Below, in pieces: positions 4,726-37,426 of a DNA stretch of 64,000 nt. The first letter of the stretch is position 1. Each line of letters begins with the position of its first letter. This DNA comes from Candidatus Sumerlaeota bacterium. GTDB taxonomy: Bacteria > Sumerlaeota > Sumerlaeia > MWCT01 > JAUWMI01. A model generated the notes under the pieces. The model did not search any database. It was given only the letters and a program-made list of their open reading frames with translations, and was not told the origin of the DNA. The stretch spans positions 1 through 64,000 of the forward strand of contig JAUWMI010000012.1 in the NCBI GenBank assembly GCA_030613245.1, in the 5' to 3' direction. The translations under genes were made by a program, and so were the position numbers.

Positions 4726-4778
4726 AAGACAACCTACTCGCAACAAGACACACGGCTGAAAAGATAAGGAGAGGAATC

Positions 4779-6563
4779 ATGAGATCTACACTGCGTACTG
4801 CTGCGATGCTCCTGGTCATCACATGTTCTGTTGTCGGGAACGGTGCTGAACTATTCAATGCACCGCATCTCCTCCCGCCCTCCTCATTTTGTGTGCTTTC
4901 CATCCCCGATTGTCCGCAAACCTGGACACGCATAAAAACAACGGCAATCTATCGTGAGTATCAGGCCTTGATGGCGAATCCTGTTGTGACTAACAATATC
5001 CACTACAAGGAATTCGATCTTAAGAAGCGCAAATGGGAGCTCGAGGCGGGCTTTCCATTATCATTAGATGCTATTGCAGGCCAGATGCTGTCAGGGATTG
5101 ACCTGGCGGTCATGGCTCCATCAAGCCTGGGCGCGCCACTTAGCGCACTTGTTATTATAGAGATGCGCGACCTGGTGAAGGTACAAAAGATCCTCTCCCT
5201 GTTAGAGCAACAAGCTGCGCCCCTGGCAGACCAAACACCTGGCGCCACACCATCGCCCACTCCACAGGTCCCCATGTACAAGGCAGTAGCAATCAAAACA
5301 ATGCCAAACAGCGGCATACAATATGCTCTCGTTGGCAAGTATCTCATTATTTCAAACATTGGATCCCACATTCGAGAAACGATCGACCGCACAAAGGGTG
5401 ATCTTAAGACCACACTCACTACTTCCCCCGAATTTGCTCCTCTCTTCGCAAAAGCCATGAAAGGCCTCAAGCCTACGACCCACGATCTGTTCTACGTTGT
5501 AGATAATAGCAAAATGACAAAGGTACTGATGCAGATGCTTCCTGGCATGGCGTTAATTACTGGTAGCTCGGCTATGAAAATGGTATCCAAGACTTGCAAC
5601 GTAGGATCAGTGAACATCCGCACAAACAGTGTCACGTTCAACTCTTACACGCCATTTTCTGCCGACCAGTCGGACCCAATGCAACAGCTGATCCGCAAAT
5701 ATCCGCCGCAATCGTTAGCGTCGCTACGCTACATGCCACAAGGTACATTCTTATGCTCTGCCAGCAATCTTTTTGATGGGCCAATCTTCTATGACATGTA
5801 CTACAGCATGTTTGCCTGGATGGGAGGCATGGGAGGTTTTCCTGGCATGAAGAATACGCAGGGAGATCTTGATACCAAGATCGCTGAGATTGAGAACACC
5901 CTGGGCTTTAAACTGAAAGATGATCTGGCAGCCTCGCTCGGTCCGGAATTTTGTTTCGCAATGAACAATGTGACGTTTCCTTCGTTTCTTCCTATCCCAA
6001 CGATTGACATTGCTTTCATCTTCCAGGTTAAAGACCGATCCAAAATGACCATGATTATGCAGAAACTCGAACAGCTGATTCAAAAACAGCTCGGGAGTCG
6101 GTCAGGGCCTTCAGGCCAGCCATCAGCAGGCCAACCAGCATTTCAAATAACAACCCATAACGGTGTGACTATCCGTTTCCTACCGTTCCCAGATCCTTTC
6201 AACTACTCACTATGCTATGCATTTGATGGGCCGTTCCTGCTTTTAGAAACCACCGTAGAAAATATGAAGAATTTGCTGAACGTAAAGGCTGGCACATCGC
6301 AGGGGGTGGTGAAGGATGCAGAGTTTCAGACCCTTATGCAGCAGCTGCCCGAGAAGCAAAATCAGTTTCTATACGTGGCCATTACTAACATACTCCGGAT
6401 GATCAAGAACATTGCAACCAGGCAGTTCGGCGCCAGTCCACCAGATCAAGTAAAGATTCCCCTGGCGATCGTGGATGCGCTGACGTCGCTGCGCATGTGT
6501 GTGGTCACCACGAGTAGCGACGCATCGGGCGTGGTAAACCAGGGCATTCTTCTGATGAAATAA
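4779..6563 (+). CDS. Large secreted protein, DUF3352-like
   Basis: Encodes 594 residues from the ATG at 4779 (AAGGAGAGG at 4766-4774). The signal peptide is M-R-S-T-L-R-T followed by A-A-M-L-L-V-I-T-C-S-V-V-G-N-G-A. The mature part begins L-P-P-S-S-F-C-V-L-S-I-P-D, a lead-in resembling DUF3352-type exported proteins common in Planctomycetes and relatives, and has several internal stretches of the form (F/Y)-(V/C)-x-x-x-N(N/M) that may mark repeated subdomains. A Pro/Thr linker occurs near residue 150. No catalytic motif is recognised; no function is offered. It probably shares a transcript with the HD gene. Confidence 0.6.
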   Translation: MRSTLRTAAMLLVITCSVVGNGAELFNAPHLLPPSSFCVLSIPDCPQTWTRIKTTAIYREYQALMANPVVTNNIHYKEFDLKKRKWELEAGFPLSLDAIAGQMLSGIDLAVMAPSSLGAPLSALVIIEMRDLVKVQKILSLLEQQAAPLADQTPGATPSPTPQVPMYKAVAIKTMPNSGIQYALVGKYLIISNIGSHIRETIDRTKGDLKTTLTTSPEFAPLFAKAMKGLKPTTHDLFYVVDNSKMTKVLMQMLPGMALITGSSAMKMVSKTCNVGSVNIRTNSVTFNSYTPFSADQSDPMQQLIRKYPPQSLASLRYMPQGTFLCSASNLFDGPIFYDMYYSMFAWMGGMGGFPGMKNTQGDLDTKIAEIENTLGFKLKDDLAASLGPEFCFAMNNVTFPSFLPIPTIDIAFIFQVKDRSKMTMIMQKLEQLIQKQLGSRSGPSGQPSAGQPAFQITTHNGVTIRFLPFPDPFNYSLCYAFDGPFLLLETTVENMKNLLNVKAGTSQGVVKDAEFQTLMQQLPEKQNQFLYVAITNILRMIKNIATRQFGASPPDQVKIPLAIVDALTSLRMCVVTTSSDASGVVNQGILLMK

Positions 6564-7062: not shown

Positions 7063-8319
7063 ATGGGCAAGACTTTCGCTGAGAAAATCCTGGCCAGCAA
7101 GGCCGGGCTCTCTGAGGTTCAGGCCGGACAGATCGTAACAGTTGAACCCGATATCATTATGTCGCACGACAACTCGGCAGCCATCTCAAAGACCTTTGCC
7201 AAAATCGAAGTTGAGAAAGTTTGGAATCCCGACAAGATCGTTATTGTGCTGGATCACGTGGTTCCTGCGGCCAACGAAACGCACGCCAAGAACCACCAGA
7301 CCATCCGCGAGTTTGTTGCCAAACAGAGCATTAAGCACTTTCACGATATTGGCATTGGCGTATGTCATGAAGTTCTGCCGGAAAAGGGACACGTGGTGCC
7401 CGGTACGTTGATTCTTGGCTCGGACTCTCATACTACGACATACGGCGCGTTTGGGGCGTTTGCGGCAGGCATCGGTCGCAGCGAAACCGCAGCAATCTGG
7501 GCTACTGGAAAGCTCTGGCTCAAGGTGCCCCACACGTTCAAGATCGTGATTTCCGGTACATTCCCTGCTCGTGTCGGCGCAAAGGATCTTATTCTGCACA
7601 TCATCGGCACACTGGGTGCTGACGGCGCGGATTACCGCGCTGTGGAATATACGGGGCCAACGGTGAGCGCCATGTCTATTGACGACCGCATAGTTATGAG
7701 CAACATGGCACTTGAAATGGGTGCGAAGGCAGGCATTGTGGAAGTAGACGAAAAGACTGCGGCCTGGTTAGCTCCGCGCGGGGTAAAGGACTATCAGATT
7801 ATCCGCGCTGACAAGGACGCACGCTACGAACGTGTGCTCGAGTTTACTGTAGATCAGCTGGAACCTCAGCTCGCCTGTCCACATCGTGTGGATAATGTTG
7901 TGCCGGTTGACAAGAAGGCAGGAATCACCTTGAATCAGATTTTGCTGGGCACATGCACAAACGGACGCCTGAGCGACCTACGCACCGCTGCAGACATTCT
8001 GAAAGGCCGGACGATTGCGCGAGGCGTGCGCATGCTCGTGCTCCCTGCGTCCATGGAGGTATATCTGGAAGCGCTGAACAGTGGTGTGCTTGCCACACTT
8101 ATTCGTGCAGGCGCAGTAGTGTGTAATCCTGGATGCGGGCCGTGCCTGGGCGCACATCAGGGAGCGCTGGCCCCAGGTGAGGTATGCCTCTCGACCTCCA
8201 ATCGTAACTTTAAAGGCCGCATGGGATGCCGGGATGCTGAGATTTACCTCGCCAGTCCTGCTACGGCTGCCGCTTCGGCACTTACAGGCCGGATCACTGA
8301 CCCTCGAGAGATTGATTAG
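7063..8319 (+). CDS. leuC: 3-isopropylmalate dehydratase large subunit (aconitase family)
   Basis: Encodes 418 residues, the standard length for the prokaryotic LeuC/HacA type. It starts M-G-K-T-F-A-E-K-I-L and carries S-D-S-H-T-T-T-Y-G-A-F-G, L-G-T-C-T-N-G-R (first cluster cysteine) and N-P-G-C-G-P-C-L-G (other two cysteines of the [4Fe-4S] cluster). With the small subunit it isomerises 2-isopropylmalate to 3-isopropylmalate in leucine synthesis; homoaconitase or citramalate-pathway activity in the same family cannot be excluded. The partner leuD follows after a 324-bp gap largely filled by a palindromic element. No leuA or leuB is in the window. Confidence 0.9.
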   Translation: MGKTFAEKILASKAGLSEVQAGQIVTVEPDIIMSHDNSAAISKTFAKIEVEKVWNPDKIVIVLDHVVPAANETHAKNHQTIREFVAKQSIKHFHDIGIGVCHEVLPEKGHVVPGTLILGSDSHTTTYGAFGAFAAGIGRSETAAIWATGKLWLKVPHTFKIVISGTFPARVGAKDLILHIIGTLGADGADYRAVEYTGPTVSAMSIDDRIVMSNMALEMGAKAGIVEVDEKTAAWLAPRGVKDYQIIRADKDARYERVLEFTVDQLEPQLACPHRVDNVVPVDKKAGITLNQILLGTCTNGRLSDLRTAADILKGRTIARGVRMLVLPASMEVYLEALNSGVLATLIRAGAVVCNPGCGPCLGAHQGALAPGEVCLSTSNRNFKGRMGCRDAEIYLASPATAAASALTGRITDPREID

Positions 8320-8411
8320 ACGGCATCTTTGCGAAAAATATAGTTGAACATCCAAAATACCCGAAGATTTCTAAGCTTTAAAACTTCAGTGGTCATGCTG
8401 TTTCGATATTG

Positions 8412-8593
8412 TTTTGGAGTGCGCAAGCGCAGCTTGCGCTTTCAATGGTCGAAGTGCAGCTTCGACCCCTATTCTGGCAATATCGACTTTCGGCTCATAG
8501 CGTGATGAAATAGGGAAGATGGCAGTTCCACTGCGTTCCGCTGCCACCTTTCAAAGCGGTAGCTACACTATGTTTCGCTACCGCACTCCAAAA
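8412..8593. repeat. Composite palindromic element, copy A (TTGGAGTGCG ends)
   Basis: A 182-bp element bounded by perfect 12-bp inverted ends, TTTTGGAGTGCG and CGCACTCCAAAA. Inside are consecutive small hairpins: CGCAAGC-GCA-GCTTGCG, GGTCGAAG / CTTCGACC, GGCAG / CTGCC and GCGGTAG / CTACCGC. It fills most of the leuC-leuD gap. Related copies are at 19849-19990 and 57586-57709. No open reading frame is present. Confidence 0.8.
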
Positions 8594-8643
8594 TACTGCT
8601 AGATACAGCGCTGCATTTTTACAGAAGAAGGAAACTCCAGGTT

Positions 8644-9144
8644 ATGAAAGAGATAATCAGCGGACACGTCTGGAAGTTTGGTGACGACATCAATACGGAC
8701 GTCATTTTCCCGGGCAAATATACCTATACCATCTCCGATCCTGCAGAGATGGCGCAGCATGCTATGGAAGATGCTGAGCCGCGTTTTGCCAAGGAGGTGC
8801 AGACGGGCGATCTCATTGTGGCAGGTAAGAACTTCGGCTGCGGGTCATCGCGCGAGCAAGCCGCTACGTGCCTCAAAGCCGCCGGTATTGGCGCTGTGGT
8901 GGCAAAATCGTTCGCCCGCATTTATTTTCGCAATGCAATAAACCTGGGGCTCCCGATCATCCAATGTCCCGAGGTTGTTCAGCACGTCGAGGCTGGCGAT
9001 GAGCTTACGATCAAATTCGGCAAGGGAATCATCATCCACAAAGGCGTTCAGTATAGCTTCCCACCACTACCCGAATCAGTAATGGCAATTCTTGATAGCG
9101 GAGGTCTGATACCACACGTGCGAAAGAAACTGGGCCGATCATAA
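8644..9144 (+). CDS. leuD: 3-isopropylmalate dehydratase small subunit
   Basis: Encodes 166 residues, typical of the short prokaryotic/archaeal small subunit. Hallmarks: D-D-I-N-T-D-V-I-F-P-G-K-Y near the start, then G-K-N-F-G-C-G-S-S-R-E-Q-A, the swivel-domain loop that orders the substrate carboxylates. It completes the heterodimer with the upstream large subunit. GAAGGAAACTC lies a short distance before the ATG. The composite palindromic element separating it from leuC could affect relative expression of the two subunits. Confidence 0.9.
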   Translation: MKEIISGHVWKFGDDINTDVIFPGKYTYTISDPAEMAQHAMEDAEPRFAKEVQTGDLIVAGKNFGCGSSREQAATCLKAAGIGAVVAKSFARIYFRNAINLGLPIIQCPEVVQHVEAGDELTIKFGKGIIIHKGVQYSFPPLPESVMAILDSGGLIPHVRKKLGRS

Positions 9145-9505
9145 TATTAGCGCTGCCCAGACTCTAGAGGTCGAGGCCTCCCATCTGGAATGATCTCAAA
9201 AAGGCCTCCTTTGCAATCACGTTATGAAATGTACGCGAAAAGACCTGCCGGGCTTTCTTGCCATTGTTGAACCTGCATCGCGCGCTTACGAATGCAATAA
9301 ACCCAACACACCCATTTAGTATCTATTGCACGCTTGGCATTGCTCAATAAATAACGCTACGATGCCCCGAAGAGTGAAGACAAGACAAAAAAGGGGCTTT
9401 CCATAAATGATTCGTTGAGTTAATGTATTACAATTGTCTGCGGTACGTCATGAAGAGAAAAATTGCTTGATTTATCGGCTACATGAATAATAGAAAGTAT
9501 AAGGT
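9145..9505. other. Intergenic gap with no clear gene
   Basis: 361 bp between leuD and a glycosyltransferase. An inverted repeat GAGGCCT / AGGCCTC spans about 9172-9208, without a T-run. Short AT-rich stretches near 9415-9440 could hold a promoter, but no well-spaced -35/-10 pair was found. Confidence 0.4.
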
Positions 9506-10693
9506 ATGCATGAGCGAGACGATCAACCCGAGGCCAATCAATTTAATTCGCATTTTCGCATCCTTCATCTGGCCAGTAGCGAACGCTGGACTGGGGAGGC
9601 AGACCCTGCCATCAGCCTGGCTCACTGGCAGAGACGTCTCGGCCATCATGTGTGGTTGGCGTGTGTTCCTGGAAGATCATTTGAGCAAAAGGCGCGCGAA
9701 AAGGGCGTAGACGTTCTCACTACGTTATATCTCAATCGTCGCCTCAATCCGCTTCATCTACTTGCGGATCTCAAGACTCTCAGGACGTTTCTGCGCCAAC
9801 AAATGATCAACGTCATTCACTCCCATCTATTTCACGACCACTGGCTTGCAGCTCTGACCGCAAGAAAGATCACCCATCCGTACCTCCTAGTGCGCACGCT
9901 GCACCGGCCAAAGCTCCCTTACAACGATCCATTCCATCATATGCTTTTTGCAAGAAAAACTGATCTGACTATAACGGTCTGCAAGGAGGCAAAATCTGCG
10001 GTCAGTGAGAAGCTGCGGCTGCTGGACGAAAAAGTTGTTGCGATTTATGGCGGTGTAAACCTGGAGTGGTTTCATCCGGCCAAAGACGGAAACGAGTTGC
10101 GCCGATCACTGGGAATTCCTCTGATGGCTCCGGTTGCTGGCATCGTGGCAAGGCTCCGTGCCGGCCGCGGCCACCAGTGGCTGCTGCAGGCCATCCCACG
10201 CGTCCTTGAGAAGCTGCCGGATGCCTACTTCTTGATTGTAGGAAAAGGCGAAATGAAAAAGACGCTGGAGACGCAGCTACGCGAACTCCCCTTTGGCAAG
10301 CAGGTAATCATGGCGGGCTATAGAAGCGACGATCTCCCGCAGTGTTACGCTGCTATGGACGTTTCGCTTTTTCTTGGTCTTGGCACAGACGGCAGCTGCC
10401 GTGCAGTATTGGAGGCAATGGCTTCCGGGAAGCCCGTGATCGGAGTGAAACGTGGGGCCGTGCCCGAGACGATTGAACATAGCAAAAACGGTTTTCTCGT
10501 TAATCAAGGCGATGTCCAAGATCTGGCCCAGGCATTGATCACCGTGCTTGAGAATAGAGCGCTGGCTGCACAAATGGGCACACGCAGCAGACAAATTGCA
10601 GAAACCCGTTTCGCAGAACAGCGGCGTGCAGAAGAGACAATGGCAGCCTATAACAAGGCGTGGCAGGTGAAGTACGGTGCTGCATGCCGATAA
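9506..10693 (+). CDS. Family 4 (GT-B) glycosyltransferase
   Basis: Encodes 395 residues. The N-terminal Rossmann half has H-L-A-S-S-E-R-W-T-G-E and V-I-H-S-H-L-F-H-D-H; the C-terminal half has the GT4 nucleotide-sugar site: V-G-K-G-E, G-Y-R-S-D-D-L-P-Q-C-Y-A-A-M-D and E-A-M-A-S-G-K-P-V-I-G, with the family glutamates in G-T-D-G-S-C-R-A-V-L-E-A-M and V-P-E-T-I. Such enzymes transfer a sugar from a nucleotide donor to an envelope glycan or lipid at the cytoplasmic face. Acceptor and donor unknown. The ATG at 9506 has only a weak, close AAGG, so the start is provisional. The gene stands alone. Confidence 0.85.
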   Translation: MHERDDQPEANQFNSHFRILHLASSERWTGEADPAISLAHWQRRLGHHVWLACVPGRSFEQKAREKGVDVLTTLYLNRRLNPLHLLADLKTLRTFLRQQMINVIHSHLFHDHWLAALTARKITHPYLLVRTLHRPKLPYNDPFHHMLFARKTDLTITVCKEAKSAVSEKLRLLDEKVVAIYGGVNLEWFHPAKDGNELRRSLGIPLMAPVAGIVARLRAGRGHQWLLQAIPRVLEKLPDAYFLIVGKGEMKKTLETQLRELPFGKQVIMAGYRSDDLPQCYAAMDVSLFLGLGTDGSCRAVLEAMASGKPVIGVKRGAVPETIEHSKNGFLVNQGDVQDLAQALITVLENRALAAQMGTRSRQIAETRFAEQRRAEETMAAYNKAWQVKYGAACR

Positions 10694-10885
10694 GGTGGTT
10701 AGCTCCAAACCCTGGTTATCCAAAAGCGGCGAGATTCAGGGAACTCCTCAGTCCTTGGTACACAGTTACTTTCACGGCTATATCAGCTACCCAACTCGTG
10801 CTAGCTGATGCATCTTCCTTGACTTTTGACGGCCCGGTAAGTAAACAACAATAGAAAAAGTCATTCAAATATCCTCTTTTTCGGA

Positions 10886-12328
10886 ATGCAGCTCATGTCG
10901 GCTGAACAGAAAACAGATAGGCAGTATAAGGGCTCGATTGTTGTGGTTGAGGATGAGGAGAATATGTGTAAAATCCTCACGAAAATCCTCAATCTTGACG
11001 GCTACCACGTCACTACGTTTGTCAATCCCATCAAAGCGCTTGAGTACATCACGACGTATGCGCCGGATATTGTGATTACTGACATCAAGATGCCGCAACT
11101 CAGTGGAATGGAGGTACTCAAACGCGTCAAGCAGGCAAATCAGAACATTGGGGTCATTGTTATAACAGCCTACGCCACGATTGAAGGGGCTATCGATGCG
11201 ATGAAGGCAGGGGCCTTCCATTACGTCACGAAACCGTTTAAGACCGCCGAGCTCCTGATGACGTTGCAGAAGGCGATAGAACATAAGCGCCTGCTGGATG
11301 AAAACGTCATTTTTACCGAGCACGTGCGCCGGGAGTTTGCCGGGATCAATATCATCGCCGAAAGTCCAGCGATGCAAAACATCAAGGCCTTGATAGAAAA
11401 AATTGCGCCGACGGAAAGCGCGGTCTTAATCCAGGGTGAAAGCGGGACCGGCAAGGAACTGGTCGCCAAGGCCATCCATAACGCTAGCCATCGTCGGCTA
11501 AAACGCTTTGTACCGATAAACTGCCCTACCATTCCAGAGACGTTGATGGAAAGCGAGCTGTTCGGCCACGAAAAAGGCGCATTTACCGGAGCAACGCAGA
11601 CCAAACACGGCCTTATCGAACTCGCACACGGCGGCACGCTCTTCCTCGACGAAATTGGCGATCTCCCACTTCATTTGCAGGCCAAGCTGTTACGCGTACT
11701 GCAGGAACGCGAGATTCAACGCGTTGGCGGATTGAAACAAATCCCCGTTGACATACGGCTACTTGCCGCCACGAACCACGACCTTGAAAAGGATATAGAG
11801 AATGGGACGTTCCGCAGCGACCTCTTCTATCGGCTGAACGTTATTAATATCATTATTCCTCCTCTACGCGAACACTGGGAAGACGTTGAGCCACTGGTCG
11901 AATATTTTCTCAACAAGTTCAGCCAGCAGATGCACAAACCGAAAATGCACATCTTGCCAGAAGCGATGAACTTATTGAAACGATACCCTTGGCCAGGAAA
12001 TGTCCGCGAACTCGAAAATATCCTCGAGCGTCTGAACGTTCTGGTTGAAAAGCAATCTATCGGCGCCGAAGATATTCCCGCTGATCTGCAGCCATTAACA
12101 AAAGAGTTGCCCATGGCACCACCACGCATCCGCGAGCCAGTGCCAAGCGGTGAATATAAATCGGCACGCCAACAGTTTGAGACCGAGTACATAACGGGAT
12201 TGCTGCGGCAAGCAGAAGGAAACATTACTGAGGCTGCACGCATCTCAGGTATGAGCCGCCGCAATCTTTATGAAAAGATCGAGAAACTAGGTCTTGATCT
12301 CGAGCAGTTTAAGAAAAATACCAAGTAG
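10886..12328 (+). CDS. Sigma-54-dependent response regulator (NtrC family)
   Basis: Encodes 480 residues with three domains. Receiver (about 15-130): V-V-E-D-E-E acidic pocket, phospho-acceptor Asp in I-V-I-T-D-I-K-M-P, and K-P-F. AAA+ domain (about 155-385): Walker A G-E-S-G-T-G-K-E, sigma-54 contact loop G-A-F-T-G-A, Walker [10 protein letters not shown], and the R-S-D-L-F-Y-R-L-N sensor. C-terminal Fis-type helix-turn-helix: [14 protein letters not shown]. It activates RpoN-dependent promoters with ATP hydrolysis when phosphorylated. No sensor kinase is adjacent. An alternative ATG at 10895 removes three residues. It is a candidate activator of the -24/-12 promoters found in the pilin region, by inference only. 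Confidence 0.93.
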
Positions 12329-12329
12329 C

Positions 12330-12370
12330 CCCGCAAGCAGCTTCGACTGTACCTGCGTTTCGGGTTTTTC
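12330..12370 (+). terminator. Probable terminator after the response regulator
   Basis: CCCG and GCAG pair with CTGC and CGGG across a short loop, with an internal mismatch, followed by TTTTT. It starts two bases after the stop codon. Confidence 0.5.
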
Positions 12371-12559
12371 CTTGACTTTGCAGCAACGCCTTCTTAAGAC
12401 TACTGTCGTTTCTGCACGGATCGTCAGTTCAAAGGCTCGTCATGTACACATCTTGAATCCTGGGAACAAAACTATCGTCATGTGCCTTACAACAGGACCA
12501 CATTGAAGGCGTCTTTAGCCAAGATATTAAAACGTCTAATTTGTTCGGAGAGATAGGCT

Positions 12560-13567
12560 ATGCAATCACACCTGGATCAGCCAGCCATAGGGGTGGATCT
12601 GGGAGGAACGAACATTGTTTGTGCGGCTGTAATGGCAGAGGCTCGCATCATAGAAAAGCACAAACGGCCAACTGAAGTGCCGAAAGGCGTGGAGCAGGTA
12701 GTTGCAAACATCAAGCAGTGCATCCACGAGGTCTTGCGGAAAGCGCATCTTTCTCTGGAGCAGATCAGTGGTATCGGAATTGGCTCGCCCGGTCCCTTAA
12801 ATACACGCACCGGCATCGTGATCAATCCCGCTAATCTCCATGGATGGCATAATGTGCCTCTTCGCAAAATGATTGAAGACGAGTTCCACGTACCGGTCGT
12901 GCTCGACAACGATGCAAATGCCGCAGCATACGGAGAGAAATGGGCTGGCGCGGGCAAGGGTGTGGACAATCTGGTGGTTTTTACTCTGGGAACTGGTGTT
13001 GGAGGCGGCATCATCATGGACGGCAAGCTCCTCCATGGCCCAGATGATACGGCAGGCGAAGTTGGACACTGTACGATTGACTATAACGGGTATCAGTGCA
13101 AGTGCGGAAATCGCGGGTGTCTGGAGACATACGTGTCAGCCACCGGCATCGTACGGAGAACGATTGAGGCAATCCGCCAAGGACGCGATACCATAATCAA
13201 CAAGATGGTGGAAGGGGATCTCAACCGGCTAACTTCGAAGATCGTCTATGAGGCACTTGAGCAGGGAGATGCATTGGCCTGCGAAATATTTGAAGAGACG
13301 GGGCGATTGCTCGGTGTGGGGATTGCCAACATAGTGAACACCCTGAATCCCGAAATGATTGTAATCAGCGGGGGAGTGATCCAAGCAGGGGAGCATCTGT
13401 TCAGGCCTACGCGCGAGGAGGTGCGTCGCCGCGCGTTTGAAGAGCCTACCCGGACTGCTAAGATCGTACCCGCCCAGCTTGGTGGTGACGCTGGCGTTAT
13501 CGGAGCCGCAGGCATTTTAGTTCAGCATCTGACTCTTAAAACGCCCACTCAGAAAAACCATGGGTAA
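12560..13567 (+). CDS. ROK-family sugar kinase (glucokinase type)
   Basis: Encodes 335 residues, standard for ROK kinases. Features in order: phosphate loop G-V-D-L-G-G-T-N near the start, L-D-N-D-A-N-A-A-A-Y with the catalytic aspartate, T-L-G-T-G-V-G-G-G phosphate-2 motif, and the ROK zinc site G-H-C-T-I-D followed by C-K-C-G-N-R-G-C-L-E. E-V-G-H supplies the sugar-binding Glu and zinc His. No N-terminal helix-turn-helix is present, so it is an enzyme rather than a ROK repressor. It phosphorylates glucose or a related hexose with ATP. GGAGAG lies 7 bases before the ATG. A PfkB-type kinase follows 100 bp later, so the pair may feed sugar metabolism together. Confidence 0.9.
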   Translation: MQSHLDQPAIGVDLGGTNIVCAAVMAEARIIEKHKRPTEVPKGVEQVVANIKQCIHEVLRKAHLSLEQISGIGIGSPGPLNTRTGIVINPANLHGWHNVPLRKMIEDEFHVPVVLDNDANAAAYGEKWAGAGKGVDNLVVFTLGTGVGGGIIMDGKLLHGPDDTAGEVGHCTIDYNGYQCKCGNRGCLETYVSATGIVRRTIEAIRQGRDTIINKMVEGDLNRLTSKIVYEALEQGDALACEIFEETGRLLGVGIANIVNTLNPEMIVISGGVIQAGEHLFRPTREEVRRRAFEEPTRTAKIVPAQLGGDAGVIGAAGILVQHLTLKTPTQKNHG

Positions 13568-13668
13568 TAAATGCATGTAGCGCCGGCTCTGGGCCGACGT
13601 TATCCTCCAAAACAAACTGGAAAAGGTACTAATATAAGATCCTGATGTAACACATCAAGGAGAGGCGC

Positions 13669-14664
13669 ATGAAAATAAGTGTGATTGGGTCTGTGATGTA
13701 CGACGAGATCTTTCCATACAAGGGCGAGCGGAAAGAGAGCTTCGGCGGAGTACTCTATAACATCCTTGCGCTGGCGCGAGTGTTTGGGCGTGACGCTACG
13801 ATTCATCCCGTATCCAAGCTCGGTGCAGATCACCTCCCTGTCATCATCGAACAGTATCTCCAGGGTCTGTCAAATGTTCATCTGCAAGGGATACGAATCA
13901 ATCCAGAGGGGACAAATCAGAACACCCTGCGCTACCCAAGCCCGGATCGGCGGGAAGAACGCATGACCCTGCGCACTCCGCCTGTTACATTCGACGAGCT
14001 CAGTCCGTTTCTTGATGCTGATATTATGCTAATTAATTTTATTTCTTGCTCGGAAATCGCGCTGGAAACATTACAACAGATACGTCGCCACTCGAGGGCA
14101 TTCCTCTTTCTCGACGTCCACAACCTGCCGCGCTTCGTGGATGCAGATGGTAATTTACGGCCAAAGCCGCTCGAATCGTGGAAGGAGTGGGTTGGGTGTG
14201 TGAATGGCCTGCAGTGCAATGAAGAAGAACTATGCCTTATGATGGGTCAGCAGCTGAATTCTGAGGCTGATTACCAGGAGGCGCTGTTAAGAATCGTGGA
14301 CGCCGGAGCCACGTATGCGGTGCTCACCCTCGGCTCGCGCGGATCAATGCTCGTCTACAAGACTGGCGGTGAATGCTACGGGTTGACAGTTCCTGTAGCC
14401 CCGGTGCAGCAAATGGCAGACTCAACAGGATGCGGCGACGCGTTTTCCGCCGGATTCCTTAGAGGGCTCTTCACACTAAAGCACCCGCTAAAGGCCTTGC
14501 TGCTGGCCAGTTCTGTTGCAGCGATCAATTGCGAAGCTGCTGGTCTCGATGGCTGTCGTGACATCCACCAGGCCGAACACAGGATGAAGACAGCGTATCC
14601 GGAACTCTTTCGGCAAATTGACGCTGGCTGGTCTGGACAACTCCTCCGGCCGGCTGCCGGCTGA
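13669..14664 (+). CDS. PfkB-family carbohydrate kinase
   Basis: Encodes 331 residues with ribokinase-fold hallmarks: I-G-S-V-M-Y-D-E at the start, G-G-V-L-Y-N for substrate binding, and the second PfkB signature D-S-T-G-C-G-D-A-F-S-A-G-F with the catalytic Asp and anion-hole Gly. It transfers phosphate from ATP to a sugar or sugar-like alcohol; the exact substrate is not evident. AGGAGAGG precedes the ATG. It converges on RNase R downstream, with only 75 bases between the two stop codons and no clear terminator. Confidence 0.85.
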   Translation: MKISVIGSVMYDEIFPYKGERKESFGGVLYNILALARVFGRDATIHPVSKLGADHLPVIIEQYLQGLSNVHLQGIRINPEGTNQNTLRYPSPDRREERMTLRTPPVTFDELSPFLDADIMLINFISCSEIALETLQQIRRHSRAFLFLDVHNLPRFVDADGNLRPKPLESWKEWVGCVNGLQCNEEELCLMMGQQLNSEADYQEALLRIVDAGATYAVLTLGSRGSMLVYKTGGECYGLTVPVAPVQQMADSTGCGDAFSAGFLRGLFTLKHPLKALLLASSVAAINCEAAGLDGCRDIHQAEHRMKTAYPELFRQIDAGWSGQLLRPAAG

Positions 14665-14739
14665 GCGCAGGCTCTGCGCGCAAAAAGGCCTGCAACTTGC
14701 TCGGTGCTCCCCTGGCGGTGATGTGCCAACCCCACTCCC

Positions 14740-16878
14740 CTACAGGATCTTTTTAAAGCCAAAGTCCATACGGCGATTCACCAGATCAACCCGTTCGAGC
14801 GAAACCAGCACACGTTGACCAAGCACAAAGGTAATCCCACGCTTTCGAGCCTTGAGCAGCAGCCGCTCTTCATCGTATTCATACGAGTCGCTGGGCAGAT
14901 TGCGCAACGGTATTAATCCCTCAACCGGATACTGGTCCAATTCCACGTACACACCGTGATTAGCAATGCCCGACACGGTGGCTTCGAATTCTTCACCCAG
15001 AAATGCGTGCATAAACTCGAGCGACTTCACAAGCATTGCCTCTCTCTCAATCACATCCGCACGATCTTCACGATCCGTAGCAAGTTGCGCAATTGCTGGC
15101 AGGCCTTGGGCAAGCTCCTGCTGCCGATCGTCTGTTAGCTGTCTTCCACCCATTGACTCTCTTAAGATGCGATGCACAACGAGGTCCGGATAGCGGCGGA
15201 TCGGTGAGGTAAAATGCGTGTAACATGCGCTGGCAATGCCGAAATGGCCCTTGTTCTCTGCGCTATATTGCGCGCGCATCATTGCACGCAAAATCAAACG
15301 GCGGATCATGTAGCCGTGAGGCAGGTGCTCGGCACGCGTGAGTACGGCTTGCAGCTGCTCAACAATTTTTCCGCGCGAAGACCGCAGCGTGATGCCCAGA
15401 TTAGCCAATATCGGAACTATCCGCTCCAGCTTTTCGCGCGCTGGCTTTTCGTGTACACGATAGAGCGAGGGAATTTTCAGCCAGAAGAGATGCTGTGCCA
15501 CCACCTCGTTCGCCAGCACCATGCATTCCTCGACCAGACGATGACTGGCCAGGCGAATCTTGCGTGTAATATCAACCACCTGCCCCGCAGAGTTGAAAAT
15601 TACCTCGGTTTCCGGCATATCGAGATCCAGACTTCCACGCTCTGCCCGCACCTGACGCAACCGATCGCTCAGCGCCTTTAGTGCAAGTAGATCGTCTTGC
15701 ACCGACTGGTATTTCGACAGTATCCACGGATCAGAGCGATCGAATACTGCCTCCACCTCTTCGTATGTCATCCGGAATCGCGATCGAATAATCGCCTCGT
15801 AAAACCGGTAATCGCGCACCTGGCCATTCGAGTCAACGTCAATGATCACACTCATGGTCAGGCGGTCTTCGTCCGGACGCAGACTGCAAATGGTGTTTGA
15901 AAGCGCATCAGGTAACATTGGGATCACACGATCCACCGGATAGATACTGGTGCCTCGTTCCCGTGCCTCTTTACCAATGAGTGAGCCTTCAGCAACGTAA
16001 TGCGACACGTCGGCAATGTGTACCCCTAAGCGGAAAACGCCGTTTTCAAGAACTTCGATGGAGAGAGCATCGTCGAAATCCTTAGCATCCACCGGGTCAA
16101 TTGTTATCGTGCGCATAGGTCGGAAGTCCTGGCGGCGAGCAAGTTCTTCAGGCGCAATCACCTTGGCAACCTCGCGGGCTGCACGCAGCACTGCCTTTGG
16201 AAACTCCGGCTGTACACCGTAATCTCGAACTACCAGCAGAACGTCAGTAAGCGGCATCTTCTTATCGCCGAGAACTTCGACGATTGTGCCCAGAAGGGGA
16301 TCACGGCCAGACGTCCAGTCTGTAATCTTCACCACCACCCAGGCGCCGTTCTCCACACGCAGGCGCGCAGGCACGTGCGATATGGACACGTGACGACCGA
16401 TGCGCTGATCCCGCGGCATCCCGATGCCGCCTCGTTTGCCATGCTGAAACTGTCCAACCAGAATAGCGCGGCCTCGCGCGAGCACCTCGGCAATGCGGCC
16501 TTCGGGCTTCTCGCCTGGGCGTCTGATCATGCGAACCGCTACGGTATCGCCGTGTACACCGGTCGCGAGATTGCGGCGGGCAATGAAAACATCCGCCACC
16601 CGTTCCATGCCTTCACGCAAATGTATGCGCACAAAACCGTACCCCTTTGCGGCGATTTCGAGTTTGCCAGTAACGATCTCCGGAGCGCCGAGGATTCCAT
16701 AGCGCTGTGCCTTGAACCGGTGTACCTTCCCTTCACGGCTAAGCTCACGCAAGGCGTGCCGCACCAGTCGTCGCTGAGTAGGACGCAACCCCAAACGCTT
16801 CACGATGTCCATAACTCGAAGCGTGCGGGGTGATGCGCTGCGCAGCACTGCCTCGACTCGTTGCTTTAATGACTGCAC
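14740..16878 (-). CDS. rnr: Ribonuclease R
   Basis: Encodes 712 residues. The order is the RNase R one: a short N-terminal winged-helix part, cold-shock domains (G-K-L-E-I-A-A-K-G-Y-G-F-V), the RNB catalytic domain with D-P-V-D-A-K-D-F-D-D-A-L-S carrying the magnesium-binding aspartates, H-I-A-D-V-S-H-Y-V, and a C-terminal S1 domain ending near D-F-G-F-K-K-I-L. It degrades structured RNA 3' to 5' processively in the cytoplasm. It lacks the long Lys-rich tail found in some RNase R proteins. Transcribed alone, opposite to both neighbours. Confidence 0.95.
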   Translation of the reverse strand: MQSLKQRVEAVLRSASPRTLRVMDIVKRLGLRPTQRRLVRHALRELSREGKVHRFKAQRYGILGAPEIVTGKLEIAAKGYGFVRIHLREGMERVADVFIARRNLATGVHGDTVAVRMIRRPGEKPEGRIAEVLARGRAILVGQFQHGKRGGIGMPRDQRIGRHVSISHVPARLRVENGAWVVVKITDWTSGRDPLLGTIVEVLGDKKMPLTDVLLVVRDYGVQPEFPKAVLRAAREVAKVIAPEELARRQDFRPMRTITIDPVDAKDFDDALSIEVLENGVFRLGVHIADVSHYVAEGSLIGKEARERGTSIYPVDRVIPMLPDALSNTICSLRPDEDRLTMSVIIDVDSNGQVRDYRFYEAIIRSRFRMTYEEVEAVFDRSDPWILSKYQSVQDDLLALKALSDRLRQVRAERGSLDLDMPETEVIFNSAGQVVDITRKIRLASHRLVEECMVLANEVVAQHLFWLKIPSLYRVHEKPAREKLERIVPILANLGITLRSSRGKIVEQLQAVLTRAEHLPHGYMIRRLILRAMMRAQYSAENKGHFGIASACYTHFTSPIRRYPDLVVHRILRESMGGRQLTDDRQQELAQGLPAIAQLATDREDRADVIEREAMLVKSLEFMHAFLGEEFEATVSGIANHGVYVELDQYPVEGLIPLRNLPSDSYEYDEERLLLKARKRGITFVLGQRVLVSLERVDLVNRRMDFGFKKIL

Positions 16879-18183: not shown

Positions 18184-19722
18184 ATGGAAGGAATTGCAGG
18201 AGTGAAACTCAGCGCAATTGATATTGGTGTGGTCATCTTATTTGTCGTCGCAATCACCACGATCGGGCTCTACTTCACACGCATGCAACGCACCACCAAG
18301 GATTATTTCCTGGGAGGCCGCAATCTGCCCTGGTGGGCGGTGATGCTCTCGATCGTGGCCACGGAAACCTCGGCTGCCACAGTCATTGCAGCGCCTGCCT
18401 GGGCATACGGCGGCAGTCTCGTATTTCTCCAGCTCACGTTTGGCTATCTGGTAGCGCGTATTATCCTGGGCTACCTGTTTGTGCCACGGCTCTATAAAGG
18501 AGAACATCAGTCAATTTACAAATACCTCGAAGGGCGATTTGGGACTGCGGCGAAAAATATCGCGGGCATTACCTTCTTCGCTACGCGTGCCCTGGCCACC
18601 GGAATTCGCGTCTACATTCCTGCCATTGTTATGAACCAGATCATTCCTTCATGGCCGTTCCACTACTGCGTGATTCTTAGCGTAGGCATAGCCCTGATCT
18701 ATACCTCTTTTGGCGGATTTCGAGCCGTGGTCTGGACAGAAGTGCTCATGTTTACCATCTATATCTTCGGCGGGCTTGTGGCCATGATCACCATTCTCGA
18801 CAAAGTTAGTCTGGGGAGCGTGTTTCAGATCGCCTCGGACGCAGGTAGACTCAAGCTGTTTGACTTCCGCATCCTCGACTTCAGCATTAATTACACTGTG
18901 CTTTCCGGATTTGTCGGTGGCTGCTTCCTCTGTATGGCAACTCATGGAACAGACCAGACTATTGGACAACGCCTCCTGGCGTGTCGGAGCCAGAAAGAAA
19001 GCCGCCGGGCCATTATCGGTAGCGGCATTATTATCATACCACAATTCCTCTTCTTTCTCTTTCTCGGGGTTATGCTGTTCGCCTTCTTTTCCGGCAATTT
19101 CCCGGCCCTGGCAAAGGATGCTGACATCTTTCCATACTTCATCATCAATCACATGCCGGTTGGTTTTGTTGGCATGGTGATTGCCGCTATATTCGCTGCC
19201 GCCATGTCCACGACCAGCTCTGACGTCAATGCGCTGGCCAATATTGCGGTCAATGACTTCTACAAAATGTACATTAAGCGCAAAGCCAGTGAGCTCCATT
19301 ACGTACTGGTTGCGAAGATCGCCACGGTCATCTGGGGAATCATATTGATCTTTATCGCCTTTATTCCGCGATTAGCCCCGCCGGAATACAAGCTGCTTGA
19401 CATCTGTCTGGCGATTCCGTCGCTCACTTACGGTGCGCTGCTTGGAACGTTTCTGCTGGGATTTTTGACAAAGAAGACTGACCAGCGCGGCGTGATTACC
19501 GGCGCCATCACAGGGGCTGTGGTCGTTCTGATGGTCAGCTTTTTCCCGTTACTCTACAGGTTCTTCCCTGACAGCATGCCTGCTTTCTTCGGCCTATTTC
19601 CTACTATTGCATGGCCGTGGTTCTGTCCTATTGGATGCCTGACCACTATGGGAGTGGGCTACGGGATCAGCGTGTTTTTCCCCAAAAAACGGAAGGCTGC
19701 AGTTGCCCCGGCGGAGCTCTGA
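18184..19722 (+). CDS. Sodium:solute symporter (SSS family)
   Basis: Encodes 512 residues with about 13 hydrophobic segments. The family pattern is seen early: D-Y-F-L-G-G-R-N-L-P-W-W-A-V followed by A-T-E-T-S-A-A-T-V-I-A-A-P-A-W-A-Y-G-G, part of the LeuT-fold sodium and substrate sites. M-S-T-T-S-S-D-V-N lies in the eighth-helix region and helps form the second sodium site. Substrate could be a sugar, acetate or an amino acid; the sequence alone does not decide. AAAGGAGAAG precedes the ATG. The neighbouring genes give no substrate clue. Confidence 0.9.
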   Translation: MEGIAGVKLSAIDIGVVILFVVAITTIGLYFTRMQRTTKDYFLGGRNLPWWAVMLSIVATETSAATVIAAPAWAYGGSLVFLQLTFGYLVARIILGYLFVPRLYKGEHQSIYKYLEGRFGTAAKNIAGITFFATRALATGIRVYIPAIVMNQIIPSWPFHYCVILSVGIALIYTSFGGFRAVVWTEVLMFTIYIFGGLVAMITILDKVSLGSVFQIASDAGRLKLFDFRILDFSINYTVLSGFVGGCFLCMATHGTDQTIGQRLLACRSQKESRRAIIGSGIIIIPQFLFFLFLGVMLFAFFSGNFPALAKDADIFPYFIINHMPVGFVGMVIAAIFAAAMSTTSSDVNALANIAVNDFYKMYIKRKASELHYVLVAKIATVIWGIILIFIAFIPRLAPPEYKLLDICLAIPSLTYGALLGTFLLGFLTKKTDQRGVITGAITGAVVVLMVSFFPLLYRFFPDSMPAFFGLFPTIAWPWFCPIGCLTTMGVGYGISVFFPKKRKAAVAPAEL

Positions 19723-19824
19723 TCCAACCGTTTGCCTTGCTGCTTGTCTTTGCGAACCTATTTTTCGCATCAGGACAGATACCACCATCTTCTGCGGCTT
19801 ATTTAGATGCTCGCCTCTTAGTTA

Positions 19825-20046
19825 CTCAAAGTGCCCGAATTTTTAACCTTGGAGTGCGGTAGCGAACCGCAGGGGAGCTGCCGCTTTGTCAATCGCAAGC
19901 GCAGCTTGCGATTGACTAGGCCAGGCCGCAGCTTCGCTTCGGCTTAGCAAAGCGCAAGCTCCGCCATTGCTACGCTTACGCACTCCAAAAGGGCTTTGGC
20001 CCTACACTCACATTCTTACTCTGATGAATTTTTCGGCCACTTTGAG
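19825..20046. repeat. Composite palindromic element, copy B
   Basis: Inner part (19849-19990) has TTGGAGTGCG ... CGCACTCCAA ends and internal hairpins such as CAATCGCAAGC-GCA-GCTTGCGATTG. An outer inverted repeat flanks it: CTCAAAGTGCCCGAA on the left, TTCGGCCACTTTGAG on the right. The same outer pair flanks copy C. No coding capacity. It begins 102 bp after the symporter stop. Confidence 0.75.
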
Positions 20047-20112
20047 CTTCCTAACCGAAGAACCTGGGTTAGCTCTTGAAGCATGAAAGCCCCGTAATAT
20101 CGCACACCATGT

Positions 20113-20176
20113 CTTCTTAACCGCGCACCTTGCGCACAAACATGGCTTGACTCTGCGATAGGTATTAGTTAAGAAG
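20113..20176. repeat. 64-bp imperfect inverted repeat with GTTAAGA end
   Basis: CTTCTTAAC at 20113-20121 and GTTAAGAAG at 20168-20176 are perfect complements, and an inner pair (ACCTTGCGC / GCGATAGGT) is imperfect. Size and layout recall a small attC or attI-like site, but the terminal base does not fit the usual core-site consensus. Confidence 0.4.
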
Positions 20177-20248
20177 AATTACAGTGCTAAAAATTGGATT
20201 GAACGAAAAACAGTCGTTGAGGGAATTTCGTAGTCTGTCCCCAAAATG

Positions 20249-20381
20249 CGCCAACAATTGCATTCAGTTGACCGAAACCGTCCTGTGCAAATTCGATTGT
20301 CTGAATTTCCGTATCAATTTATTATCAAATTCTGCTGCTCAGTGCTGCGCAGGTTTCGGCAACTGATGCAGATCGTTCTGC
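20249..20381 (+). other. attC-like recombination site upstream of the HEPN-like cassette
   Basis: An imperfect palindrome of 133 bp. The inner arms are GCATTCAGTTGACCGAAACC (20260-20279) and GGTTTCGGCAACTGATGC (20352-20369): they pair fully apart from two unpaired bases on one strand, the mark of integron attC sites. The right end is GTTCTGC (20375-20381), in the position of the R' core site. Its reverse complement, GCAGAAC, is found just after the next gene, as expected for the two ends of one gene cassette. Length is inside the known attC range. Confidence 0.65.
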
Positions 20382-20393
20382 GTCAAATATATA

Positions 20394-20411
20394 AAGGAGA
20401 ATGCGAAGTTG
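20394..20411 (+). promoter_or_regulatory. Ribosome binding site supporting a TTG start
   Basis: AAGGAG at 20394-20399 is 9 bases before TTG at 20409. The intervening ATG at 20401 opens only a six-codon frame, so the TTG is the best start of the HEPN-like gene. Confidence 0.55.
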
Positions 20412-21083
20412 TCAACTTTGACACATCGAGTAGCTGCCATTCAGGTGAAAATGCTTCATCTTCAATTTAGAATGAAAAAGATTTATGAAGACCAGAAGCT
20501 GCTCAATAGTAAATTGGCAAGTTTTAAGACTCCGCGAGAAGTGATCAAAGGAATGAATAATGCGGTATATAGCGCAATTGATATGCTCATAACTTTTGAG
20601 CATATGTTTCAATTAGTTAACGACATTTTCAACACCTCGGAATTGAAAAATCGATTAGACCAAAGCACGATTCAATTACTTGGTAATATAAGAAAAATTG
20701 CTCAAAAGTGGAAACATGTAAGAAACAAACTCGGAGGCCATATTGATATAGAAATCGCAGAAAAGTTTTGCGAGAAGCATAGTTATTTGGGTGTGTTTTT
20801 AAGTGATGACTTAGAGGCCGATATTGGCATGCTTAATATGCTCCTAATTGAAAGCGCGGTTAATACTGTACGTAACAAATCTGATATTTTTCGCAGGGAT
20901 CTTGATTTAAAAAATAACGGCGTTGAACCAGAAATCAAATTATTTGTAGAAACGTTAAATAATGATTGGAATGAAGTTTTCAGTTACTTTGAGCCTTTGA
21001 TGAAATTTTTATATAACGTTGGCAAAAAAGAAAAAATGGAGTGTACTGATCCGAAAAACTGGAAAGGGATCGTAGTTGATTAG
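20409..21083 (+). CDS. HEPN-like helical protein in an integron-type cassette
   Basis: Encodes 224 residues, markedly more AT-rich and Lys/Asn/Ile-rich than its neighbours, a sign of transfer. It is predicted mostly helical. The segment W-K-H-V-R-N-K-L-G-G-H-I-D contains R-N followed by His five residues after the Arg, matching the R-N-x4-H active-site pattern of HEPN ribonucleases. HEPN proteins often cut RNA in toxin-antitoxin or anti-phage systems, but no antitoxin partner (MNT nucleotidyltransferase or similar) is beside it. A TTG start with a good ribosome binding site is preferred; the first ATG in frame is at about 20451. It is tightly bracketed by attC-like sites, so it is most likely a mobile gene cassette. 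HEPN assignment is inference from the motif. Confidence 0.6.
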   Translation: MSTLTHRVAAIQVKMLHLQFRMKKIYEDQKLLNSKLASFKTPREVIKGMNNAVYSAIDMLITFEHMFQLVNDIFNTSELKNRLDQSTIQLLGNIRKIAQKWKHVRNKLGGHIDIEIAEKFCEKHSYLGVFLSDDLEADIGMLNMLLIESAVNTVRNKSDIFRRDLDLKNNGVEPEIKLFVETLNNDWNEVFSYFEPLMKFLYNVGKKEKMECTDPKNWKGIVVD

Positions 21084-21088
21084 TAAAA

Positions 21089-21163
21089 CGCAGAACAATT
21101 GAATTCACTCGGATATGAGTTCCGCTGGCGCTCCACTCACACCGGTGATTCAAAGCGTTAGGC
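21089..21163 (+). other. attC-like site downstream of the HEPN-like gene
   Basis: Starts CGCAGAAC-AATT 5 bases after the stop codon and ends AAAGC-GTTAGGC (21157-21163), a perfect GTTRRRY R' core site. Arms TTGAATTCAC-TCGG and CCGG-TGATTCAA pair with an unpaired base on one side. CGCAGAAC is the exact complement of the GTTCTGCG that ends the upstream attC-like site, which is the relation expected between the start and the R'' box of a single cassette. Size about 75 bp. Confidence 0.75.
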
Positions 21164-21253
21164 GAGATGTGAAAAAGCAATGAAATTCACCCAGTATTTT
21201 CTCCACATCCACCAGAGACCTGACGGATCAATAATAAAGGTCAAAGGTAAAGC

Positions 21254-21309
21254 GGGGACAGCAACCTAATTTCCGGTGGACAAATTCGTGAATTAAGGTT
21301 GCTGTCCCC
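21254..21309. repeat. REP-like long hairpin (GGGGACAGCAACCT)
   Basis: A 14-bp perfect stem, GGGGACAGCAACCT and AGGTTGCTGTCCCC, with a 28-bp loop containing TTTCCGG. Similar GGGGACAG hairpins are common intergenic repeats in many bacteria, often linked to Y1 (RAYT) transposases. None is present here. Confidence 0.65.
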
Positions 21310-21398
21310 GAATTTCTGAATGAAAAAGAAGAAACGGGAACTTCTTATACAGAATGGCACAGTCCGCGTTTCCCGTTTTATGCAGACTGTATAATCAC

Positions 21399-21410
21399 TG
21401 TTGGGAAGCT
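21399..21410. repeat. Left copy of a 12-bp inverted repeat flanking the Mrr gene
   Basis: TGTTGGGAAGCT; its exact reverse complement is at 22297-22308, six bases after the Mrr stop codon. It begins with GTTGGGA, close to the GTTRRRY core-site pattern. Confidence 0.8.
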
Positions 21411-21427
21411 AAAGAAAGGGAAATTCC

Positions 21428-22291
21428 GTGGCGAAGCATGAGCAAATGCCGAAATATCACGAATTAATGAACCCTCTTCTAAAAGTCCTACATGAACTCG
21501 GTGGCTCGGGTTCAATTGAAGAAATCTCATCACGGGTTTCTGAATCTCTTGATTTACCTGAAGATGTTCTATCCATTCCTCACGATCCTGAAAAGAGTAG
21601 CCAGACGGAACTTGAGTATCAACTTGCATGGGCTCGTACTTACCTCAAGAGATATGGGATACTCGATAATTCTGAAAGAGGGGTCTGGGTCATTGTTCCA
21701 GATAAACGAGAAGTCAGAGCCGTCAATCCGCAAGAAGTTGAAAAAACGGTTCGCGATATGATCCAGAAGGAACGTGAAGGACAGCAGAAAACAGGACAAA
21801 CCGAGGAAGAGTTACCGGAAGAGGCAGAAACATGGCGGAGTAAGCTCCACCATGTTCTCACCAAGGAGTTATCTCCAGACGCCTTTGAGCGGTTGATTAA
21901 ACGTTTGCTGCGGGAATCCGGGTTCGTTCAGGTGGAGGTAACCGGCAGAACCGGTGATGGGGGAATTGATGGAAAGGGAATCATCAAAGTAGGTGGTCTC
22001 CTCAGCTTTCACGTCCTTTTCCAATGCAAGAAATACCAAGGTTCTGTCTCACCCGGAGCGATTCGGGATTTTCGGGGTGCCTTTATCGGAAGAGCCGACA
22101 AGGGTCTCTTTGTCACAACGGGCACCTTTACACGGGACGCCATGCGAGAAGCAACACGAGATGGTGCCACACCTATTGATCTCATGGACGGGGATCAACT
22201 TGCAGACAAGCTCAAGGAATTGCGTCTTGGAATCAAGACTGAGATGGTTGAAAGTGTGGATATTGATCCCGATTGGTTCAAGAATATTTGA
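21428..22291 (+). CDS. Mrr-type restriction endonuclease
   Basis: Encodes 287 residues. The N-terminal half is an Mrr-type winged-helix DNA-binding domain (K-Y-H-E-L-M-N-P-L-L, L-E-Y-Q-L-A-W-A-R-T-Y-L, G-V-W). After a Glu/Gln linker comes the catalytic domain: F-E-R-L-I-K-R-L-L, G-D-G-G-I-D-G, then F-Q-C-K-K-Y, the D...Q-x-K form of the PD-(D/E)XK nuclease centre. Mrr enzymes cut modified or foreign DNA. The GTG at 21428 has AAGGG 7 bases before it; an ATG at 21446 is an alternative. No methyltransferase is adjacent, which fits a modification-dependent enzyme. The gene is enclosed by a 12-bp perfect inverted repeat and follows an attC-like cassette. Confidence 0.88.
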   Translation: MAKHEQMPKYHELMNPLLKVLHELGGSGSIEEISSRVSESLDLPEDVLSIPHDPEKSSQTELEYQLAWARTYLKRYGILDNSERGVWVIVPDKREVRAVNPQEVEKTVRDMIQKEREGQQKTGQTEEELPEEAETWRSKLHHVLTKELSPDAFERLIKRLLRESGFVQVEVTGRTGDGGIDGKGIIKVGGLLSFHVLFQCKKYQGSVSPGAIRDFRGAFIGRADKGLFVTTGTFTRDAMREATRDGATPIDLMDGDQLADKLKELRLGIKTEMVESVDIDPDWFKNI

Positions 22292-22296
22292 TAATA

Positions 22297-22308
22297 AGCT
22301 TCCCAACA
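22297..22308. repeat. Right copy of the 12-bp inverted repeat flanking the Mrr gene
   Basis: AGCTTCCCAACA, exact reverse complement of 21399-21410. If the Mrr gene were an integron cassette, this would be its R'' box; no full attC fold could be recognised after it before the next gene end at 22371. Confidence 0.8.
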
Positions 22309-22370
22309 AGGGGAAAATCGGGGTTTTTCTCACAACGTACCAATATCTACGGAAAGCAATCTACCGAACT

Positions 22371-23021
22371 TTACCAGCGAATTAACGAGAGATCCTCAAC
22401 AAGTGGTGCGGTTAAGTCTACGTTACCGCTCAAGGTATCAACCACCTGTCCCTCGATCAAAAACCGCACGCGTTCATACTCTTTACAGTTCAGAATCAGG
22501 CTGTTCACAATCGAATAAACACAGAGCAACTCGGGAACCAGTCCGCCATGGAAATTCTCGCGAAATTCTTTCGACAAATTCACCACTATCTCGTTCTTCT
22601 GCACGTACATCGCCAGTAATGTTGTATCAGAGGAGATCGGCGACTCAAAAATCCCCACGCGTGGCCCTTTTAGCAGCTCCTCAAGGATAAATCGTGCTGT
22701 TTCGTACGAGTTCATCTCCCGCGGCAGATCAACCACTTCAGGTGTGAGATACCGGCCGTTCGTGGTATAAAAGATTCTAACCTGATTTAGGGCGGCGATG
22801 GGCCTTGCAGCTGGGAAAGCCCCCGGCACCACATCGGCTGTCCTGAGTGGTTGCGGGGACAATCCATGTTTAAACAAAACGTTAATAAAGTAGAGCCCTA
22901 ACACGATTGCGATACATGAGACCGCAATCACGACAGTCATAAACCGAGCAGTCGGGACCTCCTCTGTTGTCCGTTCACGCCGTGTGCGGGAACCCGTCTG
23001 CCGAGTATGTTGAGTTTTCAT
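22371..23021 (-). CDS. GerMN-domain envelope protein
   Basis: Encodes 216 residues with a cytoplasmic basic stretch, one transmembrane segment (about residues 28-50, FMTVVIAVSCIAIVLGLYFINVLF) and an extracytoplasmic GerMN domain: Q-V-R-I-F-Y-T-T-N-G-R-Y-L, A-R-F-I-L-E-E-L-L-K-G-P, and V-V-N-L-S-K-E-F followed by I-V-N-S-L. GerMN domains occur in spore germination proteins and in cell-wall proteins of non-sporulating bacteria, often beside amidases. Its ATG overlaps the stop of the upstream amidase-like gene (ATGA), so the two are translationally coupled. A joint role in peptidoglycan handling is likely. Confidence 0.8.
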   Translation of the reverse strand: MKTQHTRQTGSRTRRERTTEEVPTARFMTVVIAVSCIAIVLGLYFINVLFKHGLSPQPLRTADVVPGAFPAARPIAALNQVRIFYTTNGRYLTPEVVDLPREMNSYETARFILEELLKGPRVGIFESPISSDTTLLAMYVQKNEIVVNLSKEFRENFHGGLVPELLCVYSIVNSLILNCKEYERVRFLIEGQVVDTLSGNVDLTAPLVEDLSLIRW

Positions 23022-36588: not shown

Positions 36589-36759
36589 GCATTCCAGCCG
36601 TGCGTCTGTCTGCCGACCGGATTTCCTTCAACCTATAACCATTGTCCCAACTGGTGACAATGTCTACCCCACCCAATACCCTATTGGCCCTACTGTGTTT
36701 ATCAACCGACCACTCGCCGCCTAGCAGGACAAATCCCAGACGCCCTTCGTGGTAATGTG

Positions 36760-36907
36760 CTCTGAACAGTATTTGGGCATAACTGCCCCAGAATGTTTCA
36801 CTACATGAGAACAGCCATACCCAAGACCTTCCCCACGAAGAAGCATAACGTCTCGTAAACCACTAAGTCTACTGGTCTTATCTTGTTTTCTGAGATATCT
36901 TAGAAGC
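36760..36907 (+). repeat. Upstream block of pilin module 1
   Basis: Alignable with 39425-39584 and 43963-44091. Shared pieces: TCTGAACAG (first two), CCCAAGACTT or CCCAAG, and TTATCTTGTTTT just before the promoter. It may hold activator sites. The preceding 170 bp (36589-36759) resemble 39300-39425 in part and hold no gene. Confidence 0.6.
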
Positions 36908-36923: not shown

Positions 36924-36949
36924 GTATACTTAATGTTCTCCAAAAAGGC

Positions 36950-37390: not shown

Positions 37391-37426
37391 CGAAACGCCA
37401 CTTAAGAAGAAAAGGAGGACACACGA

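Follow-up and report, generated by a model that had tools for sequence, protein, structure and literature searches.

The window (the whole 64-kb stretch of DNA that was analysed) contains an AT-rich gene that lies between two imperfect palindromes. The first-pass annotation had described this arrangement, and the sequence agreed with it to the base. The features at the locus are:

20249-20381, forward strand: attC site A (133 bp, with a long terminal structure; R'' CGCCAAC, R' GTTCTGC)
20376-21157, forward strand: the integron cassette itself (782 bp); it runs from TTCTGC, behind the G^TT cut point of A, to the G in the R' box of B
20393-20399, forward strand: Shine-Dalgarno-like AAAGGAG, 9 nt ahead of the TTG start codon
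20409-21083, forward strand: cassette gene, 224 aa, TTG start, no Pfam family, same orientation as the attC sites
21090-21163, forward strand: attC site B, the cassette's own (R'' GCAGAAC, R' GTTAGGC)
21158-21240, forward strand: possible stub of a following cassette, starting TTAGGC, with a short putative ORF from an ATG at 21180 (MKFTQYFLHIHQRPDGSIIKVKGK...) that is soon cut by a stop codon

Sites A and B have both the sequence and the structure of attC sites. In site A, GCAT(t)CAGTT(g)ACCGAAACC pairs with GGTTTCGGCAACTGATGC over 18 base pairs, and the left arm has two additional, unpaired bases. In site B (75 bp, as first annotated, when the C before 21090 is counted), GAAT(t)CAC(t)CGG pairs with CCGGTGATTC and the extrahelical bases are also on the left arm. 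Each site is an imperfect hairpin with two extrahelical bases on one strand, the attC-type feature to which the first-pass annotation had drawn attention.

The ends of the cassette follow the integron boundary rule exactly. The R' box of A and the R'' box of B are complementary at 7 of 7 positions and the complementarity reaches eight bases, the start of site B (CGCAGAAC) being the exact reverse complement of GTTCTGCG. The start of the cassette is thus complementary to the R'' box of its own attC, as had been claimed. IntI, the integrase, acts on attC as a folded bottom strand and recombines it at G^TT, which explains the complementary cassette ends found here. The R' box of B is a perfect match to GTTRRRY. 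The R' box of A is off this consensus at two positions; in this box and in the R'' box of B the AAC/GTT part is kept and there are departures elsewhere from RYYYAAC/GTTRRRY, as in other sites of this genome and of the homologous locus described below. Based on the complementarity of the ends, we conclude that 20376-21157 is an integron cassette with one gene. It consists of a 33 nt leader that contains AAAGGAG, the TTG-started gene, 6 nt, and site B, and its GC content is 36% (34% in the gene), compared to 50.5% for the window.

Both sites scored well above background, on the same strand and with models that were built without them; the first-pass annotation had held that background covariance scores would count against a cassette. 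We scanned both strands of the whole window with a home-made attC scorer (criteria: R box, arm pairing, and consensus); A (47.5) and B (40.4) came out as the top two places, and the best score in three Markov-resampled windows was 37.5. A covariance model built from only 12 class 1 integron attC sites (R1) gave 14.6 bits for B and 14.0 bits for A over 19500-22500, and 6.6 for the next best place. With default filters R1 missed site A because of its long loop, and detected it with the filters off; the long loop also keeps the model score of A moderate. A second model (R2) was built from 20 R1 matches on other contigs of this genome, with no window sequence inside. Over 135 kb, R2 gave 33.0 bits for B (E = 2.7e-5) and 20.8 bits for A (E = 0.027), and genome-wide the E-value of B was 8.6e-4, all of these E-values being rough because R2 includes a few weak sites. 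R2 does not fire at random, as 33 of 40 genomes of the phylum had no match at E <= 0.001. The bottom strands of both sites were folded, as the first-pass annotation had proposed. The fold of A was better than that of all 200 shuffles (z = -3.9); for B, z was -2.0 and 7 of 200 shuffles were equally good. Rfam had no match in the window.

The only homologue of the cassette gene found in about 85,000 genomes is in a different phylum and has the same cassette ends. It is in a Candidatus Aminicenantes MAG (locus L022), and its protein is 63% identical over all 224 residues. The gene has GTTCTGC before it and GCAGAAC after it, and the attC site at 4687-4758 aligns with site B above chance (z = 6.4 relative to shuffles). 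More sites of the same type are at 2884, 3878, and 8462, placing the homologue within a row of attC-like sites. These AT-rich sites are singly low-scoring (8.6-21.6 bits); the matches between successive R' and R'' boxes are 5, 7, and 6 out of 7. There was no homologue of the cassette protein in the 39 other genomes of the phylum or in plasmids, phages, and viral contigs. Site B resembles both the Aminicenantes site and a site in its own genome (11286 on contig C19); attC similarity does not decide the donor.

A gene and recombination ends that are common to two phyla are predicted by a mobile cassette and not by a chance pair of palindromes. Judged from sequence, we regard the homologue at L022 as the decisive support for a cassette. 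Mobility as a unit predicts a homologue with the same boundaries elsewhere, and L022 holds one. The first-pass annotation had named homologues without such flanks as evidence against its reading, and the one homologue found has the flanks. At L022, the attC sites in 2884-3053 and 4687-4857 each precede a conserved segment of ~100 bp in which there is a promoter-like TTGACA, and to judge from these segments the L022 cassettes may carry their own promoters.

The product of the cassette gene may be an HEPN-type RNase. The gene appears to have its own ribosome-binding site (AAAGGAG). The protein matched no family at a meaningful level in Pfam, PHROGs, NCBIfam, or PADLOC, there was no HEPN match in Pfam, NCBIfam, or PADLOC, and no relative was detected among solved structures. 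The longest block conserved with the L022 protein, VRNKLGGHIDIEI, holds an Rx5H motif (R105-H111). The motif, RNKLGGH, is identical in the two homologues and fits Rx4-6H with a polar residue after the R, the R-N-x4-H form of the HEPN RNase motif (PMC3710099). A structure predicted from the two sequences had low confidence (pLDDT 52) and Foldseek returned nothing significant with it; in this low-confidence model the motif is at the end of a long helix, as in HEPN domains. The motif tentatively suggests an HEPN RNase, perhaps one that acts in defence or as a toxin.

The flanks of the cassette hold little that is recognizable as neighbouring cassettes. Having two attC sites means that A closed a previous cassette that is now unrecognizable: there is no TTGGCG upstream of A to mark the 5' end of the cassette to which A would have belonged. 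The ORF fragment after site B had no Pfam match. Further upstream is a palindromic dispersed repeat (19830-20020, GGAGTGCGGTAGCGA...CACTCC) that is MITE/REP-like and has 22 matches in the genome, including 57588-57695 and 8552-8591 on the same contig. Between site B and the next gene is an inverted repeat (21253-21310, CGGGGACAGCAACCT ... AGGTTGCTGTCCCCG), probably another small repeat element. The gene that adjoins the cassette, 21428-22291, encodes an Mrr-type restriction endonuclease (Pfam Mrr_cat and Mrr_N; PADLOC type IV REase). In relatives of the same order we found no empty site and no conserved neighbourhood; the comparison failed because the neighbouring genes are not kept together in these relatives.

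The genome contains about 20 further attC sites, in several clusters. The search of the rest of the genome for intI and more sites, which the first-pass annotation had recommended, found the following:

C19: attC cluster at 7562, 8445, 8701, 11286, and 15289
C49: attC cluster at 43946, 44444, 44960, and 46887
C2: attC cluster at 2971, 3879, 9119, and 9742
C37: attC cluster at 52141, 52496, and 53190
C86: attC cluster at 11186 and 11819
C65, C52, and C30: one attC site each
C10, 5414-6080: IntI-like remnant with several stops and frame changes (68 bits)
C49, 47423-47500: IntI-like remnant, ...MMYTHVLNRGGKGVRSPAHAL (short match, low score)
C65, 34785-34865: IntI-like remnant, ...MIYTHVLNRRGKGVRSPPDAL (short match, low score)

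Successive attC sites of the genome often have near-complementary R' and R'' boxes (5-6 of 7 positions in many pairs). The array of five sites on C19 (L049) spans 7562-15366, and its last cassette gene (14139-15284), which by eye resembles a Fic-domain protein, ends 5 bp before its attC. With R2, attC sites were also found in other genomes of the phylum (G014, G015, G007, G006, G034, and G012).

This genome has probably lost its integrase. The first-pass annotation had described a genome segment without an integrase, and this holds for the whole contig of the window (C41, 88 kb; no match to TIGR02249, the IntI model). No match anywhere in the genome exceeded the TIGR02249 cut-off and there was no intact IntI (the assembly is 96% complete in 97 contigs). 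The three IntI remnants are apparently decayed, and only that on C10 has a substantial score. Integron integrases have the ending THVLxxGGxGVRSP. A complete integron has an intact IntI and an adjacent attI; this genome has broken remnants only.

Contig C10 (L016) has a decayed integron-like layout over 413-6080: the broken IntI, a large kinase/ATPase gene (1605-5222), an attC-like palindrome, an SDR gene, and a second palindrome. The two palindromes (1423-1552 and 413-538) flank the SDR gene and their boxes, GTTAGCA and TGCTAAC, are complementary at 7 of 7 positions. There is a candidate attI-like TTTAGGC near 5353. C10 is short, so it is possibly mis-binned.

Alternatively, the palindromes might have nothing to do with integrons and be transcription terminators, repeats of the REP/MITE type, or hairpins that arose by chance. 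In favour of this, both the dispersed repeat and the inverted repeat described above lie in the intergenic region. However, A and B are copies neither of each other nor of the dispersed repeat, and on these grounds we rejected MITEs. In addition, both sites fit attC models that were built without them, their ends are mutually complementary, and the same ends are present in the homologue from another phylum. We consider this explanation extremely improbable. It is also quite unlikely that the locus belongs to an active integron, with cassettes still being shuffled by a host IntI encoded in the missing part of the assembly. The fragmented assembly leaves some room for this, some of the contigs with attC sites are short, and there are IntI-like matches in the relatives G004 and G013. 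Against it, no TIGR02249 match passes the cut-off and all three IntI-like stretches are disrupted or cut short. In G015, which is of the same order, the IntI match (4540-5052 on its C5, a contig that also has four attC sites at 35680-38230) has internal stops as well.

The first-pass annotation had offered either a CALIN or a single off-site insertion, and the evidence favours the former. Integrases are known to be able to insert cassettes at genomic sites that are not attC sites. A single cassette inserted in this way would be no relic of an array, and it is in keeping with this that one gene only is bracketed and that C41, which carries ordinary chromosomal genes, has no attC over its 88 kb beyond A and B. 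However, off-site (attC x attG; attG sites are named in PMC12901181) insertion would bring one attC and here there are two clear ones, with A a full hairpin site that has its own R''. This reading would additionally require either a two-cassette circle or insertion beside an attC that had itself gone in off-site earlier, and we consider off-site insertion unlikely. An array or CALIN is preferred because two attC sites bracket the gene and because numerous other attC sites and three apparent IntI remnants occur in the genome, and the locus fits better as an outlier left by a chromosomal integron that has decayed.

Based on these results, together with the covariance scores and the flanks of L022, which support the original proposal of capture by integron recombination, we conclude with high confidence that the locus is a two-site CALIN: a chromosomal integron gene cassette with an attC site on each side, surviving from integron activity in a lineage in which the integrases have decayed. 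In the likely course of events, an IntI that acted here earlier or in another cell would have recombined folded bottom-strand attC sites, and a circular cassette (TTCTGC...B) would have gone in beside site A, either by attC x attC recombination or by recombination with attI. Loss of the integrase would have come later, and repeats or deletions would then have eliminated the cassette ahead of this one and most of the cassette behind it. If an IntI were to arrive, it could probably still use A and B as folded-hairpin substrates.

These findings indicate that well-formed recombination sites on cassettes can persist where the integrases of a genome look dead, and that homologous cassettes with the same ends occur in far-apart phyla. 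They extend the known range of integron carriers to an uncultured lineage and provide two natural attC sites, of which one has an atypical R' box. More speculatively, it is possible, if rather doubtful, that the lineage harbours a large fossil integron, dispersed in several clusters (about 20 attC sites, with at least three dead integrases), that its cassettes still form an inter-phylum reservoir of exchange, and that this cassette is spreading a new family of HEPN-type RNases that has no Pfam match.

The locus is of a kind already known, CALINs and lone clusters in MAGs; of interest are the pairing of the cassette across phyla and the many sites beside dead integrases. A CALIN is a cluster of attC sites lacking an integron-integrase, as defined with IntegronFinder 2.0 (PMC9024848). 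The locus resembles CALINs in having two attC sites on one strand (about 0.7 kb apart, where the definition takes at least two within 4 kb and no nearby intI), a gene between the sites, and a contig without an integrase. It differs from typical CALINs in its minimal size of two sites, in the 133 bp site with an off-consensus R' box, and in the other clusters and broken integrases of its genome. Integrons and lone clusters have been described in MAGs of uncultured lineages (PMC9668308, Archaea). Our locus shares with these and with sedentary chromosomal integrons the anatomy of the cassette, many attC sites over several contigs, few or no intact IntI, and signs of cassette exchange between distant lineages, whereas here there is an isolated pair of sites, and the ends are common to two homologous genes that are 63% identical rather than to near-identical, recent transfers. 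An HEPN protein from an integron cassette is already on record (PDB 3jrt; PMC3710099, Table 1). Like members of that family, our protein is encoded by a cassette gene, is predicted to be helical, and has an R-polar-x-H motif at a predicted helix end, but it has no detectable similarity to any solved structure or to Pfam HEPN families, and its HEPN fold is putative.
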